Part shown: one piece after another, positions 2,559-27,111 of the stretch | Layout of the letters: every line of letters begins with the position of its first letter | Numbering within the stretch: position 1 is the stretch's first letter | Source: Aquificota bacterium | Lineage (GTDB): Bacteria > Aquificota > Aquificia > Aquificales > Hydrogenothermaceae | Length of the DNA stretch: 64,000 nucleotides | Direction: 5' to 3' | NCBI GenBank assembly: GCA_013153635.1 | Contig: JAADDZ010000003.1 | Coordinates: 6,995 to 70,994, forward strand | Made by a program: the position numbers and the translations under genes | Notes under the pieces: generated by a model | What the model was told of the DNA's origin: nothing | What the model saw: the letters and a program-made list of their open reading frames with translations, nothing else | The model's database searches: none

Positions 2559-4913
2559 ATGAGAAATATAATATTTCTTCTACTAACCTTATCACTATAT
2601 TCTTTATCGTTTGGAACTAACGCTAAACATCTAAACATATTCCCTGTTTTTATTGAAAACAAAGGACAAGTCCGCACAGATATTAAATATTACTTAAAAT
2701 CTCCAGTGGGAACAGTAGGGATACAAGATAACGGTACTATTCTTTATTATCTTATAAACAATGGAAAAATAGAATACTTTGCGGAAGAACCTACAAATCA
2801 TAAGAAAAAATTAGAAATACTAGGGTTAGAAAAACAGAAAGCTATCGTAAATTACTTTAAAGGAAATAAATATATAACTAATATCCCTACTTTTAAAAAA
2901 GTAAAATTAACTAACGTCTTTCAAGGAATAAATATAGAACTAATATTAAACGACGGAAAATTAGAAAAAATATTCAAAGTAAAACCCTACAGCAAAGTAT
3001 CTGACATAAAACTTTCACTAAGCAATGTAAATAAAATAAGAATAAATAAAGAAGGTGAACTAGTTCTACAGCTAAAAGATAGTACCAAAAAATTCTCGAA
3101 ACCAGTTGCATTTCAAATTATCAATGGAAAAAAACATTTTGTAAAAGTACATTACAAAATTTTAAACAAAAATACGTATTCTTTTGAAGTTGGAAAATAT
3201 GACAAATCCAAAGAGCTAATAATAGACCCGATACTCAATGGAATTTCGTTTGGAGGAACCAACGAAGAATTTGCAAAAAGCATAAGAATTGTAGGAGATA
3301 AAGTTTTTGTTGCAGGTTTTACCCGTTCTGAAGACTTTCCTGCTAAAAACGGATACGATACATCTTTTAATGGGAAAAAAATCATACCTAATGTTACATA
3401 TGACGAAAACGAAGGAGTGTATCTAGATGAAAATAACCAGAGAGTAATCTGCCATGAGTATATAGAAGATACTAAGACCTGCATTATTTACAACCAGGAT
3501 ATTTTCGTAGTTAAACTTGATAAAAACCTAACACAGATAGAAAGCGCAACTTTTTTAGGTGGTTCAGAACTGGATAGAGCAGATAGTCTATTAGTTGATA
3601 ATAATGGAAATATCATCATAGTGGGAAGTTCATATTCTCCAGACTTTCCAACTACAGACCTTGTAGATGGAGATGACCCTCTAAATCATGGAAATTGGGA
3701 TATTATTATTGCCGTTTTTAACAATGACCTAAACCAGCTTATAAAATCAGTACGAATTGGAGGCTCTAGAAAAGACAAAGCAACTGATGCAAAACTATCT
3801 GAAAATTACATATATGTATATGGATATACAAGGTCAAGTAACTTTCCAACCACTCCTAACGCATACCAACCTTCAAAAATGATAGGAAACGATTATGATG
3901 CTTTTATCATGAAAATTGATGTATCCCTGAACAAAATAGAATCCTCTACCTTTTTTGGAGGATTAGAAAAAGACCTAACATCAAAGATATATGTATCTGA
4001 AGATGCAGTGTATGGAACAGGAACAACTCATTCAAAATCTTTATCTAATGCAAACGTACCCGGATTCAATAAAACATTTAATAGTGGAGATTCCTCTAAG
4101 AAATACTATACCGATGGATTTCTTTTCAAGATGGATAAAAATTTAGAACAGTTACAAGCATGGACTTTCATAGGAGGAAATGAGATAGATAAAACTAATG
4201 ATGTTGGACTGTACAATGGTTCTGTATACGTAATAGGATATACTCATTCTGAAGATTTCCCAGTTACAGAAAACGCCTTTAGAAAAGAATTAACTGGAGA
4301 ATATGAAGAATACACAATCGTAGAAGGAGGTACAAGTTATACAGTATACAAAAAACCTTTAGATGCATTTATAACTCAACTTGACGAGAATTTAACACAG
4401 ATAATCAATTCTACGTATCTTGGAGGTTCTTTACATGATAACTCAAACACTATAAAAATTGACGATAGAGGTAATATCTACGTGAGCGGATTTACAAACT
4501 CCTATGATTTTCCAATTACCTCTACAGCCATAAAAACAGAAATACAAGGAAGTGATGGTTTCATGCTAATAGCCTCTACCAATCTAGATAACGTAGTATA
4601 TTCAACCTTTATAGGAGGAGCTAATCAAGACTCTATTTGGGGATTTTGTACTGATTCTGAATATTCTATTTATACTCTTGGTGTAACAAACTCTATAGAT
4701 TTTAAAAATTATCTAAACAATCCTAGCATAAGTAATGATGACGACATTTTTATTACTAATTTTTACTGGGAAGAAGGGAATTTGTTGACAAAATCGTGTG
4801 ACAAAGGTAGTAACGGCTGTAATTATTCTTTTTATGGAAATAATTTAATATTCCTTCTAATAGCTATACTGTTTTTATCAATGAGAAGATTTACAATTAG
4901 AAACATGGTGTAA
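2559..4913 (+). CDS. Secreted SBBP-repeat beta-propeller protein with C-terminal membrane/Arg tail
   Basis: 784 residues. An N-terminal signal peptide (MRNIIFLLLTLSLYSLSFG) is followed by a conserved N-domain beginning IENKGQVRTDIKYYLKSP, typical of proteins with SBBP repeats. From ~residue 225 there are about eight repeats of the form FGGTNEEFAKSI...VAGFTRSEDFPA, the beta-propeller repeat pattern (G-x-T-x-S-x-DFP). The end is GSNGCNYSFYGNN, a ~15-residue hydrophobic helix, then MRR and a short basic tail, resembling C-terminal protein-sorting signals that are cleaved on the cell surface. It sits inside a polysaccharide locus with a PEP-CTERM-type deacetylase. Likely an extracellular surface protein; specific function unknown. 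Its stop codon lies inside the palindrome at 4906-4928. Confidence 0.8.
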   Translation: MRNIIFLLLTLSLYSLSFGTNAKHLNIFPVFIENKGQVRTDIKYYLKSPVGTVGIQDNGTILYYLINNGKIEYFAEEPTNHKKKLEILGLEKQKAIVNYFKGNKYITNIPTFKKVKLTNVFQGINIELILNDGKLEKIFKVKPYSKVSDIKLSLSNVNKIRINKEGELVLQLKDSTKKFSKPVAFQIINGKKHFVKVHYKILNKNTYSFEVGKYDKSKELIIDPILNGISFGGTNEEFAKSIRIVGDKVFVAGFTRSEDFPAKNGYDTSFNGKKIIPNVTYDENEGVYLDENNQRVICHEYIEDTKTCIIYNQDIFVVKLDKNLTQIESATFLGGSELDRADSLLVDNNGNIIIVGSSYSPDFPTTDLVDGDDPLNHGNWDIIIAVFNNDLNQLIKSVRIGGSRKDKATDAKLSENYIYVYGYTRSSNFPTTPNAYQPSKMIGNDYDAFIMKIDVSLNKIESSTFFGGLEKDLTSKIYVSEDAVYGTGTTHSKSLSNANVPGFNKTFNSGDSSKKYYTDGFLFKMDKNLEQLQAWTFIGGNEIDKTNDVGLYNGSVYVIGYTHSEDFPVTENAFRKELTGEYEEYTIVEGGTSYTVYKKPLDAFITQLDENLTQIINSTYLGGSLHDNSNTIKIDDRGNIYVSGFTNSYDFPITSTAIKTEIQGSDGFMLIASTNLDNVVYSTFIGGANQDSIWGFCTDSEYSIYTLGVTNSIDFKNYLNNPSISNDDDIFITNFYWEEGNLLTKSCDKGSNGCNYSFYGNNLIFLLIAILFLSMRRFTIRNMV

Positions 4914-4928
4914 ATAAATTTTACACCA
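4906..4928. promoter_or_regulatory. Upstream activator-site palindrome 1 of the ASH-protein promoter
   Basis: A perfect inverted repeat, TGGTGTAAA-N5-TTTACACCA, overlaps the stop codon of the preceding gene. Its core TGTAAA-N5-TTTACA recurs at 4977-4995 and twice before the second sigma-54 promoter. There is no T-tract after it, so it does not read as a terminator. Its centre is about 160 bases upstream of the -12 element, a normal distance for a sigma-54 enhancer site. Confidence 0.6.
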
Positions 4929-4976: not shown

Positions 4977-4995
4977 TTGTAAATAATTTTTACAA
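4977..4995. promoter_or_regulatory. Upstream activator-site palindrome 2 of the ASH-protein promoter
   Basis: A perfect inverted repeat, TTGTAAA-N5-TTTACAA, has its centre ~93 bases upstream of the -12 element of the sigma-54 promoter. A further half site (TGTAAA) lies at 5030-5035. The spacing to palindrome 1 is 69 bases centre to centre. Identity of the binding protein is unknown; no enhancer-binding protein gene is in the window. Confidence 0.6.
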
Positions 4996-5064: not shown

Positions 5065-5081
5065 TTGGCATATAAATTGCT
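5065..5081 (+). promoter_or_regulatory. Sigma-54 (RpoN) -24/-12 promoter
   Basis: TTGGCA-N6-TTGCT matches the sigma-54 consensus TGGCAC-N5-TTGCW, with GG (5067-5068) and GC (5079-5080) separated by exactly 10 bases. The predicted start near 5092 gives a ~42-base leader with a GGGAGG ribosome site before the ATG at 5134. Two palindromic activator sites lie upstream. Confidence 0.8.
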
Positions 5082-5133: not shown

Positions 5134-6270
5134 ATGAAAAATACTCTAAAAACGGTAGTACTTGGAAGTGCTATATCTTCGGCACTTGTCTTGGGAAATG
5201 CTTTTGCAGGACCCATAGTAGATGTCAACCCGGGAACTACACAGTTTGGAGATGTTCTTGTTGGTACGACAGCTGGTCCAGAAACTATAATCATTACAAA
5301 TACTGGTGATGCTGATTTGGTTATCTCTAGTATAACTCTTAGAGGTAGAGACTTTGATAACTATGCTGTAGCGGCAGGAACTACATGCCCAATGGGCGGT
5401 GGAACATTAAGTGTTGGTCAATCTTGTGAAATAAAGGTAACTTTTACTCCAAACAGCATAGGCTACAAAAAGGCACTGTTTAAAATAGTATCAAATGGAG
5501 ACCCTTCTCCAGCTTACGCTTATTTAAGAGGAACTGGAGTAGACCCAAGTGCTGAACTAACTCCAAGCTTCTATGACTATGGTCATGTATGGATAGAAGG
5601 TCCTACATTCCCAGTACAACAGTTCACCCTTCAAAACACAGGAAATACAGATTTGATAGTACAAGGTATCCATCTTAGAGGACAGTATGCCCCTAACTGG
5701 CAGTTTGTAAGTGGTACTGATGCATGTCCATATGGAACTACATTCACATTACCAGAAGGTCAAGACTGTCAAATCTACGTTGAATTTCATCCTATAGAAG
5801 TAGGAGAAATGAAAGCTGCAATAAAAGTTTATACAAATGATACTGACGAGCCTAAACTATATTCAAAACTCGTAGGAGTTGGAAGAAGTGCCTATGAACC
5901 AGATATAGACCTGTGTGAATTCTCTGATCCAGCAGACTTTGGAGAGGTTCCTATCTGTACGGGAACTATAACTCATAGAATAGAACTCCAAAACGAAGGA
6001 CAGATGGACTTGAATATCGATCAAGTTCTTTTAAGAGGAAGAGATGCGGCTAACTTTAGTATCGTAACTGACAACTGTAGCGGAACAACTCTAACAGCAG
6101 GTCAAATTTGTGATGTCTATGTTCAGCTAGACCCAGCAGTAACAGGAACAGGTTATAAAAAGGCTGTACTTAAAGTTCGCTCTAATGATCCAGACGAAAA
6201 TCCATACATCATATATCTAAGAGCAACTGTTACTGATTGTAGTACCCTTAACGACATAATACCTCAATAA
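5134..6270 (+). CDS. Secreted protein with three ASH-type (choice-of-anchor D) Ig-like repeats
   Basis: 378 residues. The signal peptide (MKNTLKTVVLGSAISSALVLGNAFA) would be cleaved before GPIVDVNPG. Three ~115-residue repeats follow, each with a start like P..DFG.V..G, a middle like LQNTGNTDLIVQGIHLRGQ and an end like CEIKVTFTPNSIGYKKA. This is the ASH/MSP-like immunoglobulin fold of choice-of-anchor D proteins. Each repeat holds a Cys pair ~15 residues apart (for example TTCPMG...QSCEI), and the protein ends shortly after a further Cys, without the usual C-terminal anchor. It probably forms an exported stalk or fibre. A strong GGGAGG ribosome site, a sigma-54 promoter with paired activator sites and a strong terminator after the gene suggest a monocistronic, strictly regulated, abundant product. 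Confidence 0.8.
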   Translation: MKNTLKTVVLGSAISSALVLGNAFAGPIVDVNPGTTQFGDVLVGTTAGPETIIITNTGDADLVISSITLRGRDFDNYAVAAGTTCPMGGGTLSVGQSCEIKVTFTPNSIGYKKALFKIVSNGDPSPAYAYLRGTGVDPSAELTPSFYDYGHVWIEGPTFPVQQFTLQNTGNTDLIVQGIHLRGQYAPNWQFVSGTDACPYGTTFTLPEGQDCQIYVEFHPIEVGEMKAAIKVYTNDTDEPKLYSKLVGVGRSAYEPDIDLCEFSDPADFGEVPICTGTITHRIELQNEGQMDLNIDQVLLRGRDAANFSIVTDNCSGTTLTAGQICDVYVQLDPAVTGTGYKKAVLKVRSNDPDENPYIIYLRATVTDCSTLNDIIPQ

Positions 6271-6357: not shown

Positions 6358-7212
6358 ATGAATATACTTACTTTTGATATTGAGGAATGGTTCCACATTA
6401 TAGATATTCCTAATATAAAAGGGGAAAAACATTGGGAATCTCTAGAAGTACGAATTCACAAAAATATAGATAGAATTTTAGAGCTACTATATATCAAAAA
6501 TCAAAAGGCAACTTTTTTTTGTTTAGGCTGGATAGGTGAAAAGTATCCAGAAGTTATTAAAAAGATTGATGAACATGGTCATGAAATAGGCTCTCATTCT
6601 CGTCTTCACATTCCTGTATATCAAATGAAACCTGAAGATTTTGAAAAAGATACAGAATACTCTATCAAAACGTTAGAAGATATAACAGGTAAAAAAATCA
6701 GAATGTATAGGGCTCCTAGTTTCTCTATTACTTCCAAGTCCATATGGGCTTTAGAGATTTTAGCAAAACTTGGAATAGAAATAGATGCTTCTATTTTTCC
6801 TGCTTCTAGATCACATGGCGGTCTCGAAACTTTTAGATATTCAAAACCTGTCTTAATAAATGTGAACGGTATTTTGTTAAAGGAATTTCCAATGAATACC
6901 GTAAAACTCTTTGGTAGAAATATGGTTTTTTCTGGAGGTGGTTATTTTAGATTATTACCGTATAGATTAATTAAATTTTTTATGAAAAACTCCTCATATG
7001 TTATGACCTATTTTCACCCAAGAGACTTCGATCCTTATCAACCTGTATTGAAAGGTTTGAGTTTAGGTAGAAAATTTAAATCTTATTACGGATTAAAAAA
7101 TGCTTTTTCCAAATTAGAAAAACTAATTACTGATTTTGAGTTTGTTGACATAAAAACAGCCGAAAAAAGATTAAAATGGAATACTAAAATAAATTTGGGA
7201 GATATTAAATGA
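6358..7212 (+). CDS. Polysaccharide deacetylase, PEP-CTERM/XrtA locus type
   Basis: 284 residues. It begins [14 protein letters not shown], where the Asp of the TFDIEEWF motif is the NodB-family metal/catalytic Asp. Later motifs are [18 protein letters not shown] (~50-66), [12 protein letters not shown] (metal His pair, ~73-84) and [10 protein letters not shown] (~117-126). The C-terminal part, with [27 protein letters not shown] and a [12 protein letters not shown] segment, is the DUF3473-like extension typical of the deacetylase subfamily next to exosortase XrtA. The family removes acetyl groups from GlcNAc-like residues of an exopolysaccharide. The gene overlaps rfbA by 4 bases. An exosortase gene is not in view and may lie left of the window. 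Confidence 0.85.
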
Positions 7213-8075
7213 AAGGAATAATATTAGCTGGAGGTAGTGGGACAAGGTTATACCCTATAACTATACCTACTATAAAACAGTTACTTCCTGTTTATGATAA
7301 ACCTATGATTTATTATCCATTGGCAACTCTTATGCTTGCTGGGGTGAGAGATTTTTTAATTATCTCTACGCCCAAAGATTTACCAAGGTTTCAAGAACTT
7401 TTCGGAGATGGAAGCAAATTAGGACTTAACTTTAGCTATGCTAAGCAAGAAAAACCAAGAGGTATAGCAGAAGCTCTTATTATAGGAGAAGATTTTATAG
7501 GTAACGATAATGTTTGGTTAATACTCGGGGATAATCTATTTTTTGGGCATGGTCTTCCAGAACTTCTTAAGGAAGCTGGAGAGCAAAAGGAGGGTGCTAC
7601 TGTTTTTGGTTATTACGTTTCTGACCCTGAAAGATATGGGGTTATTGAGTTTGATAAAGATGGAAAGGTTCTTTCTATAGAAGAAAAACCAAAAAAACCG
7701 AAATCGCATTATGCGGTAACAGGTCTGTACTATTACGATGGAGATGCTCCAAAGATAGCAAAATCTATAAAACCTTCACATAGAGGTGAGCTAGAGATTA
7801 CAGATGTAAATAATGAGTATCTAAAGAGGGGAAAACTCCACGTGAAATTAATGGGAAGAGGTTATGCATGGCTTGATACTGGAACTCATGATTCTCTTTT
7901 AGATGCTTCTGATTTTGTTAGGATTGTAGAGCATAGGCAAGGTCTAAAAATAGCTTGTATCGAAGAAATTGCGTATAGAATGGGATACATAGATAAAGGT
8001 CAGCTTGAGAGTTTGGCTCAACCTTTGAAAAAAACAGGATACGGAAAGTATCTGTTAAAACTTCTTGAGGAGTAA
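7209..8075 (+). CDS. rfbA: Glucose-1-phosphate thymidylyltransferase RmlA
   Basis: 288 residues, the normal RmlA length. It opens [18 protein letters not shown], the nucleotidyltransferase signature loop, followed by [44 protein letters not shown] (metal Asp), [33 protein letters not shown] and [15 protein letters not shown]. It makes dTDP-glucose from dTTP and glucose 1-phosphate, the first step to dTDP-rhamnose and related sugars. Its start overlaps the deacetylase stop (ATGA). The other rml genes are not in the window. It converges with aguA 2 bases away and no terminator hairpin is seen between them. Confidence 0.95.
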
Positions 8076-8077
8076 CA

Positions 8078-9106
8078 TTATTTAGTTTTTGTAAAATATG
8101 GTATTTGTTGAGATAAACAGTGAAAGGCTCCTTGTCCTACTAATATGCTTCTTGCATCAATGCCTATTACTAATCTATCTGGAAAGTGTTCTTTGAGAAT
8201 AGATAAGGCTGTGCTGTCTTCTTTTGTCTCAAAAACGGGAACAATTACAGCAAAGTTTGAGATATAAAAGTTTAGGTAGCTTGCTGGAAGTCTCATTTTT
8301 CCCCATGGATAGTTGTAATATATTGGGGAGGGTTGGGGTATCTTTACGATATTAAATTTTCCAAGCTGTTCTAAGAATTCTAAATTCTGTTTTAGAGTTT
8401 TGTAATTCTCGTCTTCTTTGTTTTTCGTGTATAAAACAGCTATTGTATTATCATCTAAAAATCTTGCTATATTGTCTATATGCCCATCTGTGTCGTCTCC
8501 TACTATTTCTCCTCCGGGAAGCCATAATATTTGTGTGGCTCCTGTGTATTCTTTTATAGTTTCTTCTATCTCTTTTTGAGGTTTAGTTTTGTTTCGCTTT
8601 AGGACACAACTTTTGGTTGTAAGTAGTGTACCTTTGGAGTTTATCTCTATAGCACCTCCTTCAAGGATTACAGAAGGTCTAAAGATTTTGTCTGCAAAGT
8701 ATTTTGCTAGTTTGTATCCTGCAATTTTATCTTTTTCGTGTGGGTATTTTTCTCCCCAACCGTTGAACTCCCAAACAGTTGCACCTATACTGTTTTGTTT
8801 TTTTAAAAATGTTGGTGCGTAATCTCTACACCATGCATCATTTGTTGGAAGAACATTTATTTTTATCTGTCCTTGGACACATTTTTTTTCAAGTTTCTGC
8901 TCTAGTTCGTATCTGGTTAACTGGTCATTGACATTTATATACACCTCTTCTTCTAAGGCTATGATTTTTACAAATTCTACAAATGTGTTTTTTGCGTTTT
9001 CTAACTGGTCAAAGAATGTTTCTTTGTTTTGAGGATAGGTTAATATAGTCCCCTGATGTCTATACCATTCTGGGGGCATTTTGTAACCTTGTTTTTTGGG
9101 AGTCAT
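8078..9106 (-). CDS. aguA: Agmatine deiminase (peptidylarginine-deiminase family)
   Basis: 342 residues. Family motifs run in order: MPPEWYRHQGTILTYP (N-terminus), NDAWCRDYAPTF (~108), ILEGGAIEINSKGTLLTT (~150), LWLPGGEIVGDDTDGHID (~195-212, catalytic Asp/His), and GQGAFHCLSQQIP (~325-337), which holds the nucleophile Cys. The enzyme hydrolyses agmatine to N-carbamoylputrescine and ammonia in putrescine synthesis. It is last of a tightly overlapped minus operon (acyl-CoA synthetase, thiE, aguA; 4-base overlaps). Confidence 0.9.
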   Translation of the reverse strand: MTPKKQGYKMPPEWYRHQGTILTYPQNKETFFDQLENAKNTFVEFVKIIALEEEVYINVNDQLTRYELEQKLEKKCVQGQIKINVLPTNDAWCRDYAPTFLKKQNSIGATVWEFNGWGEKYPHEKDKIAGYKLAKYFADKIFRPSVILEGGAIEINSKGTLLTTKSCVLKRNKTKPQKEIEETIKEYTGATQILWLPGGEIVGDDTDGHIDNIARFLDDNTIAVLYTKNKEDENYKTLKQNLEFLEQLGKFNIVKIPQPSPIYYNYPWGKMRLPASYLNFYISNFAVIVPVFETKEDSTALSILKEHFPDRLVIGIDARSILVGQGAFHCLSQQIPYFTKTK

Positions 9107-24858: not shown

Positions 24859-24880
24859 AATATGTTAAGCATCTTTACAC

Positions 24881-24899
24881 ATGTAAAATATATTTACAT
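24881..24899. promoter_or_regulatory. Activator-site palindrome 1 of the second sigma-54 promoter
   Basis: ATGTAAA-N5-TTTACAT, a perfect inverted repeat with the same TGTAAA-N5-TTTACA core as the sites at 4906-4928 and 4977-4995. Its centre is ~200 bases upstream of the -12 element. Confidence 0.6.
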
Positions 24900-24971
24900 A
24901 TTTTAACAACTTAAAAAATTTTTATAACGTTTATACACTTATGTAAAAATACAGCATAAATATTCTCGATT

Positions 24972-24992
24972 TTTGTAAACTTAATTTACAAA
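24972..24992. promoter_or_regulatory. Activator-site palindrome 2 of the second sigma-54 promoter
   Basis: TTTGTAAA-N5-TTTACAAA, a perfect inverted repeat centred ~107 bases upstream of the -12 element and 92 bases from palindrome 1. Same core as the two sites upstream of the ASH-protein gene. Confidence 0.6.
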
Positions 24993-25074
24993 CAGTTTTA
25001 GGTAGAGATTTTCCAATAATTTTAGATAAAAGATATACCTAAGTTAAGATTATTAAAACAAAGTGTTAAAATTA

Positions 25075-25091
25075 TTGGCATTTTTTTTGCG
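25075..25091 (+). promoter_or_regulatory. Sigma-54 (RpoN) -24/-12 promoter
   Basis: TTGGCA-N6-TTGCG with GG and GC separated by exactly 10 bases, as in the promoter at 5065-5081. The expected transcript starts near 25101. Confidence 0.75.
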
Positions 25092-25099
25092 TTAAGGAC

Positions 25100-25296
25100 T
25101 TGCAAAAACTATAAAAGGTGGAGTGAGAAAGTGCTGATTTTTAGCGTAAAGTATTTTTTTTATATGAAAATCGTTTTATGGGATGAAGTTGAGAGTTCTT
25201 GTCGTTTGATACTTGGGTGTTAAAGCTAGATATATCAACACCGACTATCCTAGTATTCAAATCCATAGAAAATTAGAAAAAAATATGGTACAAAAG
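25100..25296 (+). ncRNA. Candidate sigma-54-driven leader or small RNA
   Basis: The segment between the sigma-54 promoter and the TATAAT at 25297 can fold an interrupted hairpin: TTTGATACT (25205-25213) with AGTATTCAAA (25252-25261), one bulge, and inside it GGTGTT (25216-25221) with AACACC (25237-25242). It may be an independent RNA or a long 5' leader of the diguanylate cyclase mRNA. No intrinsic terminator was found at its end. Confidence 0.35.
25131..25223 (+). CDS. Possible 30-codon leader ORF on the sigma-54 transcript
   Basis: GTG at 25131 lies 7 bases after a good ribosome site (AAAGGTGGAG, 25114-25123). The 30-residue product reads MLIFSVKYFFYMKIVLW followed by DEVESSCRLILGC. Its stop codon falls inside the hairpin at 25205-25261, an arrangement that could couple translation to RNA folding. 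It may equally be chance in AT-rich DNA. Confidence 0.3.
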   Translation: MLIFSVKYFFYMKIVLWDEVESSCRLILGC

Positions 25297-25328: not shown

Positions 25329-26222
25329 ATGAGTTTTATTATGATAAAAGAAAACTGCATACCTGATGTAGAAGAGAGTGTTATCTTCCTGTTTAATTTT
25401 CTAAAAAAGAAAAGATATACAAAAAAAGATTTCTATAGGTTTTTAGACCACATCATAGAGCTAACGAATGCCGAATTTATAACCTTATACCCTAACCTAA
25501 ATTACCCTTCAAAACCACCTATTGATATTAAAAACTTCACTATTAACCCGAAAAAAAATAATTTTAAATTCCAAGATTTTTATGTATATTCTTACAAATT
25601 CAAACACCCGGTACATTTTAATAGAGCTATTCTATTTAAAAGAAGAAGATTTTCTAAAAAAGAACAAGAATTTCTAAAATCCCTGTTTTCCTTTTGGGAT
25701 TTTGTAAATTTTGAGAGAAAACAAAAGGAAAAACTGAAAAAATATGTTTACGTTGATGTATTGACAGGTCTCTACAATAGGTACTTTCTTGAAAATGTAA
25801 TCCCTAGAGAATTAAAAAAAGTAGAAAGGTATAATCAGCCCCTTAGTGTACTCTTTTTGGATATAGACAACTTTAAATACGTAAATGACCTATATGGACA
25901 TGATGTTGGTGACGAAGTACTAAAGATAATAGGAAAAATATTCAAAGAAAATATAAGAAAAACAGACATACCTATAAGATATGGCGGAGATGAGTTTATA
26001 ATATTTTTACCTTTTACACCAGAAAGCTCTGCTATTAAACTTGCCGAAAAAATAAAAAGCAAAATAAGTCAAGAAATAGAAAAAAAGTTAGGTATATATG
26101 TAACTTTGTCTATAAGCGTGTTAGAAGTTAAAAAAGAGGTAAATCTATCTAAGATTTTAAAAAAATTAGATAGTTTACTTTATACAGCAAAGGAAAAAGG
26201 TAAAGATACAATTGTCTCATAA
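25329..26222 (+). CDS. Diguanylate cyclase (GGDEF)
   Basis: 297 residues. The C-terminal GGDEF domain (~140-297) has YVDVLTGLYNRYFLENVIPREL, LFLDIDNFKYVNDLYGHDVGDEVLK, the active loop RYGGDEFIIFLP (~217-228) and the closing LYTAKEKGKDTI, so it should make c-di-GMP. No RxxD inhibitory site is obvious before the active loop. The N-terminal ~130 residues look like a degenerate GAF-like sensor (LFNFLKKKRYTKKDFYRFLDHIIELTNAEFITLYP) without membrane helices. Start at ATG 25329; ATG 25341 is an alternative. A sigma-54 promoter ~240 bases upstream and a nearer TATAAT suggest dual control. The next gene overlaps its stop by 11 bases. Confidence 0.88.
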   Translation: MSFIMIKENCIPDVEESVIFLFNFLKKKRYTKKDFYRFLDHIIELTNAEFITLYPNLNYPSKPPIDIKNFTINPKKNNFKFQDFYVYSYKFKHPVHFNRAILFKRRRFSKKEQEFLKSLFSFWDFVNFERKQKEKLKKYVYVDVLTGLYNRYFLENVIPRELKKVERYNQPLSVLFLDIDNFKYVNDLYGHDVGDEVLKIIGKIFKENIRKTDIPIRYGGDEFIIFLPFTPESSAIKLAEKIKSKISQEIEKKLGIYVTLSISVLEVKKEVNLSKILKKLDSLLYTAKEKGKDTIVS

Positions 26223-27111
26223 TAAATTTTATGTCAGATATATTATATGTGTATTAATATTTCTCTTTTTATACAAGAGTGATACCTTTGCTAATTCAAG
26301 ATTTTATTCCAAAAAAGAGCTAGCTGTAGGTTTTTATTCAGGAGAAGTCCAAGGGATAAGAAGCGTAATTTTTAGACCTAACTATTTCTTTAGTGCTGTT
26401 TTAAAGGATAATGTTAGCGATAGTTTTAGATTTGAGTTTTTTTTAAGAACTCTTTACGGCGATGCTAGGACAGGAGATAGCGATATTGAAAACCAGTTTC
26501 TCCAAACTGACATTTTTTTTAAGCTTTTTTACAAACTTCAAGATAAAAGAAATTTTAAGATACTAACTGGTTTCTTTTCGGAGATATACATACCATTAAA
26601 AGATTTTGTCCCCTTTATAACGGAGGTTCAAAAAGAATACGGTGCTGGAGAAGATAAAATCCCTACCGATAAACCATTTAATTTTGGAATTAATATAAGA
26701 TTTGATGGTATTTACGATAAATTTTTTTCTAGTTTAGAGATAGCTTATTACATATACGGTCATAGGGTTGCTCCTAATCTTGCTCCTATGGCTCCTCTTT
26801 TTGGTATCTTTTGGGAAAATAGAGTCTTTTTCTTTGGTGATTTTTATAAACCTGTTTTTTCATTTTTTATAAACTCTGGGTTTATAATGCAAAAAAAATA
26901 TGATGGAAGCAAGATTTTAACTAAACATGATTTTTTTGCAGGAACTAAAAGGGAATTTGATATAGAGATGGGAATAGATTACATCTTTAGAACTCATTAT
27001 CATTTCTTTTTTGTTTTTTACGGTTACAATAACCTAAATAGAGGTTGGAGCAGAACAGAACCTCATGCCTTTAGAGATGGATTTTTTACTGGTGTAGGGT
27101 ACATTTTTTAA
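26212..27111 (+). CDS. Predicted outer-membrane beta-barrel protein
   Basis: 299 residues from a TTG overlapping the diguanylate cyclase stop. An N-terminal hydrophobic signal segment (YIICVLIFLFLYKSDTFA) is followed by alternating aromatic strands (for example FRFEFFLRTLYGDAR, FDIEMGIDYIFRTHYHFFFVFYGYNNLNRGW) and a C-terminal strand ending GVGYIF, with terminal Phe as is usual for BAM-inserted barrels. Not assigned to a named family. Its overlap with the cyclase suggests a c-di-GMP-linked surface function such as secretion or lipid A modification. A minus-strand tRNA begins directly after its stop. Confidence 0.6.
   Translation: MSHNKFYVRYIICVLIFLFLYKSDTFANSRFYSKKELAVGFYSGEVQGIRSVIFRPNYFFSAVLKDNVSDSFRFEFFLRTLYGDARTGDSDIENQFLQTDIFFKLFYKLQDKRNFKILTGFFSEIYIPLKDFVPFITEVQKEYGAGEDKIPTDKPFNFGINIRFDGIYDKFFSSLEIAYYIYGHRVAPNLAPMAPLFGIFWENRVFFFGDFYKPVFSFFINSGFIMQKKYDGSKILTKHDFFAGTKREFDIEMGIDYIFRTHYHFFFVFYGYNNLNRGWSRTEPHAFRDGFFTGVGYIF

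Follow-up and report, generated by a model that had tools for sequence, protein, structure and literature searches.

The window analysed here is a stretch of 64,000 nucleotides from a genome of the Aquificota (family Hydrogenothermaceae), in which two intergenic regions share paired copies of the palindrome TGTAAA-N5-TTTACA, to which no strand is assigned, ahead of an exact sigma-54 promoter. The region that leads to a diguanylate cyclase contains (i) an imperfect dyad, TGTTAAGCATCTTTACA, at 24863-24879, with one mismatch and 19 bp upstream of the next dyad, (ii) a predicted distal activator site, TGTAAAATATATTTACA, at 24882-24898, centred at about -212, (iii) a predicted proximal activator site, TGTAAACTTAATTTACA, at 24974-24990, centred at about -120, and (iv) an exact -24/-12 promoter, TGGCATTTTTTTTGC, at 25076-25090 on the + strand. 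The two identical dyads had been recognised in the initial annotation, and their flanking matches extend to 24881-24899 and 24972-24992; the second exact -24/-12 element that it placed at 25075-25091 is also present, and its “additional half site” may instead be the third, near-perfect dyad. The proposed gene start at 25100 is wrong, as the sequence there reads TTG CAA AAA CTA TAA. The cyclase reading frame occupies 25329-26222 (+ strand) and encodes a GGDEF protein in which the RKTD inhibitory-site motif can be read. It is preceded by a leader of ~227 nt that encloses a 30-codon ORF at 25131-25223.

The first copy of this architecture consists of a predicted distal activator site at 4909-4925 (centre about -175), which overlaps the stop codon of the frame at 2559-4913, a predicted proximal site at 4978-4994 (centre about -106), again with no strand assigned to either, and an exact sigma-54 -24/-12 promoter, TGGCATATAAATTGC, at 5066-5080 (+ strand). 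The gene that follows, at 5134-6270 on the + strand, encodes a secreted HYDIN/ASH-like Ig-repeat protein. Directly 5′ of the dyad pair, the frame at 2559-4913 encodes a DUF7948/SBBP beta-propeller protein, whose homologue in a related genome (G001, L055) itself lies behind a dyad/sigma-54 promoter.

The whole genome (1.69 Mb in 28 contigs) holds six exact dyads, arranged as three pairs 69-92 bp apart, and no copy of a reversed-dyad control pattern. The third pair lies outside the window, at C24:10930/11020 (L007), flanked by a leftward exopolysaccharide operon and rightward multihaem cytochrome-like genes. The operon encodes a family 4 glycosyltransferase (GT4), a Poly_export/SLBB (Wza-like) protein, and a Wzz/GNVR (Wzc-like) kinase. 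A -24/-12 site, TGGTACATTTTTTGC, with a single mismatch in its -24 element (TGGTA), faces this operon and places the dyads at -114 and -204. This direction is supported because the corresponding operon in two genomes of the same genus (G001 and G002; L052 and L083) carries dyads together with an exact TGGCA-N6-TTGC element. Two large multihaem cytochrome-like proteins (L007, 11084-16130) share the intergenic region with the dyads of the operon.

In all three pairs, one dyad lies about 105-120 bp and the other 175-212 bp upstream of a -24/-12 promoter, and in this genome the dyads precede only the HYDIN-like secreted protein, the diguanylate cyclase, and the exopolysaccharide operon. The promoters at 25076 and 5066 have the TGGC(A)-N6-TTGC sequence with GG and GC at fixed spacing, from which the exopolysaccharide promoter departs by one mismatch, and each region has at least two inverted repeats about 80-230 bp upstream, as expected of activator sites. 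The paired palindromes are very probably the upstream activator sites of a sigma-54 promoter. Exact -24/-12 sites number two in the window (0.26 expected) and nine in the genome, and only the two window promoters have dyads. The other exact sites lack a dyad within two mismatches at activator distance, and the dyad therefore marks one subset of sigma-54 promoters. Dyad-free promoters serve, among others, glnB-amtB, a type IV pilin whose neighbour is a PilR-like gene, and a lipoprotein whose neighbour is a response-regulator activator.

Across this and related genomes, 46 distinct promoters combine an exact -24/-12 element with at least one exact upstream dyad; the loci surveyed were mostly fetched for dyads, and some for the candidate activator, a peptide motif, or the -24/-12 sites of this genome. 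Three or more sites, counted with up to one mismatch, occur in 37 of the 46. In a common layout, two sites in tandem, 18-21 bp apart, lie near -175 to -200 and one further site lies near -85 to -120; the tandem spacing is also found at 24863/24882 in the window. None of the exact -24/-12 sites in these genomes has a reversed dyad nearby. The targets are conserved as well: the Ig-repeat protein has an orthologue in G003 (L070; 46% identical) and the cyclase one in G001 (L061; 58% identity), both behind dyads and an exact -24/-12 promoter. With the exopolysaccharide operons of the same genus, they bear out the conservation of the palindromes on which the initial annotation had made its reading depend. 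A promoter of this kind also precedes another GGDEF protein in G018 (L107) and PilZ-bearing cellulose synthases in genera g17 and g21 (family f2). Less in keeping with such a regulon, G001-G004, G012, and G018 also hold exact dyads near which no -24/-12 element can be recognised. At contig ends of G002 (L084, L085, L086, and L089), the dyad TGTAAAAAATTTTTACA is part of a repeated element that has no -24/-12 site.

Eight sigma-54 activators (enhancer-binding proteins, EBPs) are encoded in this genome, namely six response-regulator EBPs, one GAF EBP, and one with an N-terminal PilZ domain, designated PilZ-EBP; a ninth match, a Clp-type AAA protein, was excluded. PilZ-EBP (G000:C9:23257-24696) is a 480-residue protein composed of PilZ, a zinc ribbon, AAA+, and a C-terminal Fis-type helix-turn-helix (HTH). 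It has the motifs that define an EBP, GETGTGK (Walker A) and GAFTGA, as well as the PilZ motifs RxxxR and DxSxxG, all intact. The PilZ domain scores 26.8 bits against a Pfam cut-off of 22.5; among nine orthologues, six match the PilZ model at E ≤ 0.001 and all nine have RxxxR with (D/N)xSxxG. The reading preferred here, at a probability of roughly 0.8, is that the dyads are sites for a sigma-54 EBP that governs a matrix and attachment regulon, that PilZ-EBP is the likeliest such protein, and that it would respond to c-di-GMP within a feedback loop.

An activator that binds the dyads but ignores c-di-GMP, with PilZ in another role and the cyclase as an output, is unlikely; it would accord with the relaxation of DxSxxG to NxSxxG in g7 and DxSxxA in g21, but both ligand motifs are intact in g1-g4, and (D/N)xSxxG is the accepted PilZ motif for c-di-GMP (PMC10333796). 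Among the targets, moreover, are c-di-GMP genes, joined in relatives by a PilZ-bearing cellulose synthase. Four g7 genomes also have GAFTDA as the sigma-54 contact loop, which counts against the preferred reading. Their one dyad promoter is intact, which opposes the notion, rejected here, that this loop marks a dead regulator. The g7 EBPs (L118, L224-L231) have VY[STA]L in place of VYKL in the recognition helix, and the g7 regulon seems to have shrunk to roughly one promoter close to the EBP gene.

The distribution of dyads among genomes tracks this one activator. In a survey for the N-terminal part of the EBP across 136 genomes of the phylum, 29 carried it and 107 did not. Exact dyads average 6.3 in the carriers vs 0.67 in the others (Mann-Whitney p 6e-14, a value that ignores shared ancestry), and the genome-wide enrichment of the motif that the initial annotation proposed to compute is clear. 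The association holds within single genera: in genus g17, the ten carriers have 3, 5, 5, 4, 0, 10, 1, 5, 2, and 0 dyads and the seven non-carriers 1, 0, 0, 0, 0, 0, and 0 (exact p 0.005), and carriers also differ from non-carriers in g7 (p 0.03), both values again ignoring shared ancestry. Against it stand two g17 carriers that have no exact dyad, G057 and G064, of which G064 is 99% complete. Dyad promoters are found only a few kilobases from the EBP gene in several genomes, and such linkage occurs in two families; linkage to dyad promoters or regulon genes is found in G004, G049, G051, G056, G061, G062, and the g7 genomes.

These patterns weigh on the identity of the protein that binds the dyads. 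A real regulon could be served by one of the six response-regulator EBPs or by the GAF EBP, with PilZ-EBP merely co-inherited, and the presence of seven other EBPs and the location of the PilZ-EBP gene on a separate contig, where it adjoins no target, lend this some room. It is nevertheless quite improbable, since every one of the other seven finds a reciprocal best match in at least one dyad-poor genome while PilZ-EBP, alone among the eight, finds one in none of those tested, and since the dyads follow PilZ-EBP even within one genus and in two families are located close to the gene that encodes it. Genome contigs searched with the EBP alignment yielded generic AAA+ activators only, and the Hydrogenothermaceae match L173 carries a different EBP. 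Least probable by far, and rejected, is that AT-rich palindromes, terminators, or repeats lie by chance near two random promoters: the intergenic DNA is AT-rich, one dyad overlaps a stop codon, and some G002 dyads sit inside a repeat, but the window has four exact dyads against 0.03 expected from dinucleotide shuffles, the reversed control gives none, the geometry recurs in 46 promoters, and the G+C-rich stem and T-run of a terminator are missing. The earlier judgement that the same architecture would hardly occur twice by chance is thereby upheld, and its prediction that one activator co-controls the surface protein and c-di-GMP synthesis is supported by the clear genome-wide enrichment and a conservation test passed strongly; the third target, PilZ-EBP, and the leader peptide are additions to that earlier reading.

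In relatives, dyad promoters are associated with a larger matrix cluster. A single 9-kb stretch of G049 (L250) contains PilZ-EBP (7015-8436), a BcsS-like protein, a cellulose-synthase-like protein that bears PilZ and has its own dyad/-24/-12 promoter, and a second such promoter. Behind this second promoter, still within the stretch, come a short K-I-I-L-W-D-E protein, one large and two small secreted proteins, and the export genes, which encode a C39 peptidase and an outer-membrane protein. The peptidase is FilB/FapD-like (E 2e-49 and 2e-34) and the outer-membrane protein FapF/FilC-like (E 8e-47 and 1e-41); as their NCBIfam scores fall far below the curated cut-offs, they are regarded as relatives and not as certified members of Fap or Fil. 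No profile matched the large secreted proteins. C39 peptidases of the FilB/FapD-like type (72 bits or more) occur in 23/29 carriers vs 0/107 others. In G001, the operon runs in the order peptide, small secreted protein, C39 peptidase, cyclase, and FapF-like gene. Nothing in the genome of the window matches the large secreted protein, its C39 match lies elsewhere and is weaker, and FapD/FapF-like genes were not found in it as a set; the window protein at 26212-27111 has no similarity to the FapF-like gene of the G001 operon. Because the large secreted protein is absent and the C39 match only weaker and elsewhere, the cyclase promoter of the window looks like a remnant of a C39/FapF-like operon.

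The short ORF in the cyclase leader (25131-25223, + strand) has a GTG start and an internal ATG at 25164, which is followed by a K-I-V-L-W-D-E motif at 25167-25187 (MKIVLWDE). Searched as DNA, the pattern K[I/V/M][I/V/M]LWDE was present in 20 of the 29 carriers, mostly as a single copy; among the 107 other genomes it matched one, where the bases read KVVFWDE. The codons of the K[IV][IV]LWDE motif vary at third positions, and therefore the peptide is what is conserved. In nearly every carrier the motif lies shortly behind a dyad/-24/-12 promoter, and this holds in two families; copies were located in the window (25164-25223) and in L061, L081, L069, L107, L250, L258, L265, L074, and L310-L330. 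Some of these proteins combine a signal peptide with a double-glycine-like stretch, and others are bare. A second copy in this genome, KVILWDE at C21:95522 (L331), belongs to a longer ORF and has neither dyads nor a -24/-12 element. As guesses, the C39 peptidase might process the leader peptide as a component, or the peptide might act on the cyclase or the EBP. A wider proposal, held tentatively and with somewhat less than even confidence, is that PilZ-EBP, as one protein that links c-di-GMP to sigma-54, forms a positive loop with its own cyclase and ancestrally also drove a complete matrix island (cellulose and a Fap-like amyloid). The short conserved K-I-I-L-W-D-E peptide, as the first product encoded after these promoters, would then have an unrecognised function, such as nucleating amyloid, serving as a secreted signal, or modulating the cyclase or the EBP.

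The mechanism proposed for the regulon builds on what the sequences of these genomes show: the sites and promoters with their geometry, the targets and their conservation, and the co-occurrence and linkage with the EBP. PilZ-EBP would occupy two or three dyads, placed in the ranges of about -105 to -120 and -175 to -230. Binding of c-di-GMP to its N-terminal PilZ domain would either relieve or trigger the AAA+ domain, the sign of the response being a presumption, and the dyad-bound EBP would contact sigma-54 RNA polymerase by looping. Three promoters would thereby be opened, those of the secreted Ig-repeat protein, the exopolysaccharide operon, and the diguanylate cyclase, and the product of the last would close a positive feedback loop that reinforces the matrix state.

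Aquificota form streamers and mats in hot springs. No account of the transcriptional control of their matrix was met in the literature searched, and a PilZ-EBP regulon in the phylum was likewise not found there, which is weak evidence of absence. The analysis provides a candidate activator, operator, promoter class, and set of targets across two families, each of which lends itself to in vitro tests on purified proteins, so that a candidate “switch to biofilm” circuit of hot-spring bacteria is now open to testing. The presence of PilZ-EBP in some species of one genus and not in others also makes dissection by comparison possible.

Among known systems, the Fap operon of Pseudomonas (PMC5557850) and FilB/FilC offer parallels to the cluster of the relatives, with the C39 peptidase resembling FapD/FilB and the channel FapF/FilC. 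FapD is a periplasmic C39 protease required for amyloid secretion (PMC5557850). The likeness to Fap is limited by the sub-threshold scores, by large secreted proteins without a profile match, and by the absence of the set from the genome of the window. VpsR of Vibrio cholerae is an EBP-type biofilm regulator that responds to c-di-GMP, as proposed here, but it is atypical in being associated with sigma-70 and has no PilZ domain (PMC10333796). FleQ of Pseudomonas is likewise an AAA+/Fis EBP that ties c-di-GMP to matrix genes; however, it has a divergent receiver N-terminus, lacks PilZ, and binds c-di-GMP on its AAA+ domain through an LFRS motif (PMC7288161, PMC10333796). In PilZ-EBP, LFRS is absent ahead of Walker A, and the N-terminus is PilZ plus a zinc ribbon and not receiver-like. 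BerB of Burkholderia cenocepacia comes close in that it is an EBP that binds c-di-GMP, raises exopolysaccharide, and needs RpoN, yet it is without an N-terminal input domain and acts via berA (PMC5552954), whereas PilZ-EBP, at 480 residues, has PilZ and a zinc ribbon before AAA+, and here the sites stand directly before the exopolysaccharide operon, the surface protein, and the cyclase, as part of their own promoters. If the proposal is true, the fusion of PilZ to a sigma-54 activator would couple c-di-GMP to RpoN more directly than FleQ, VpsR, or BerB.
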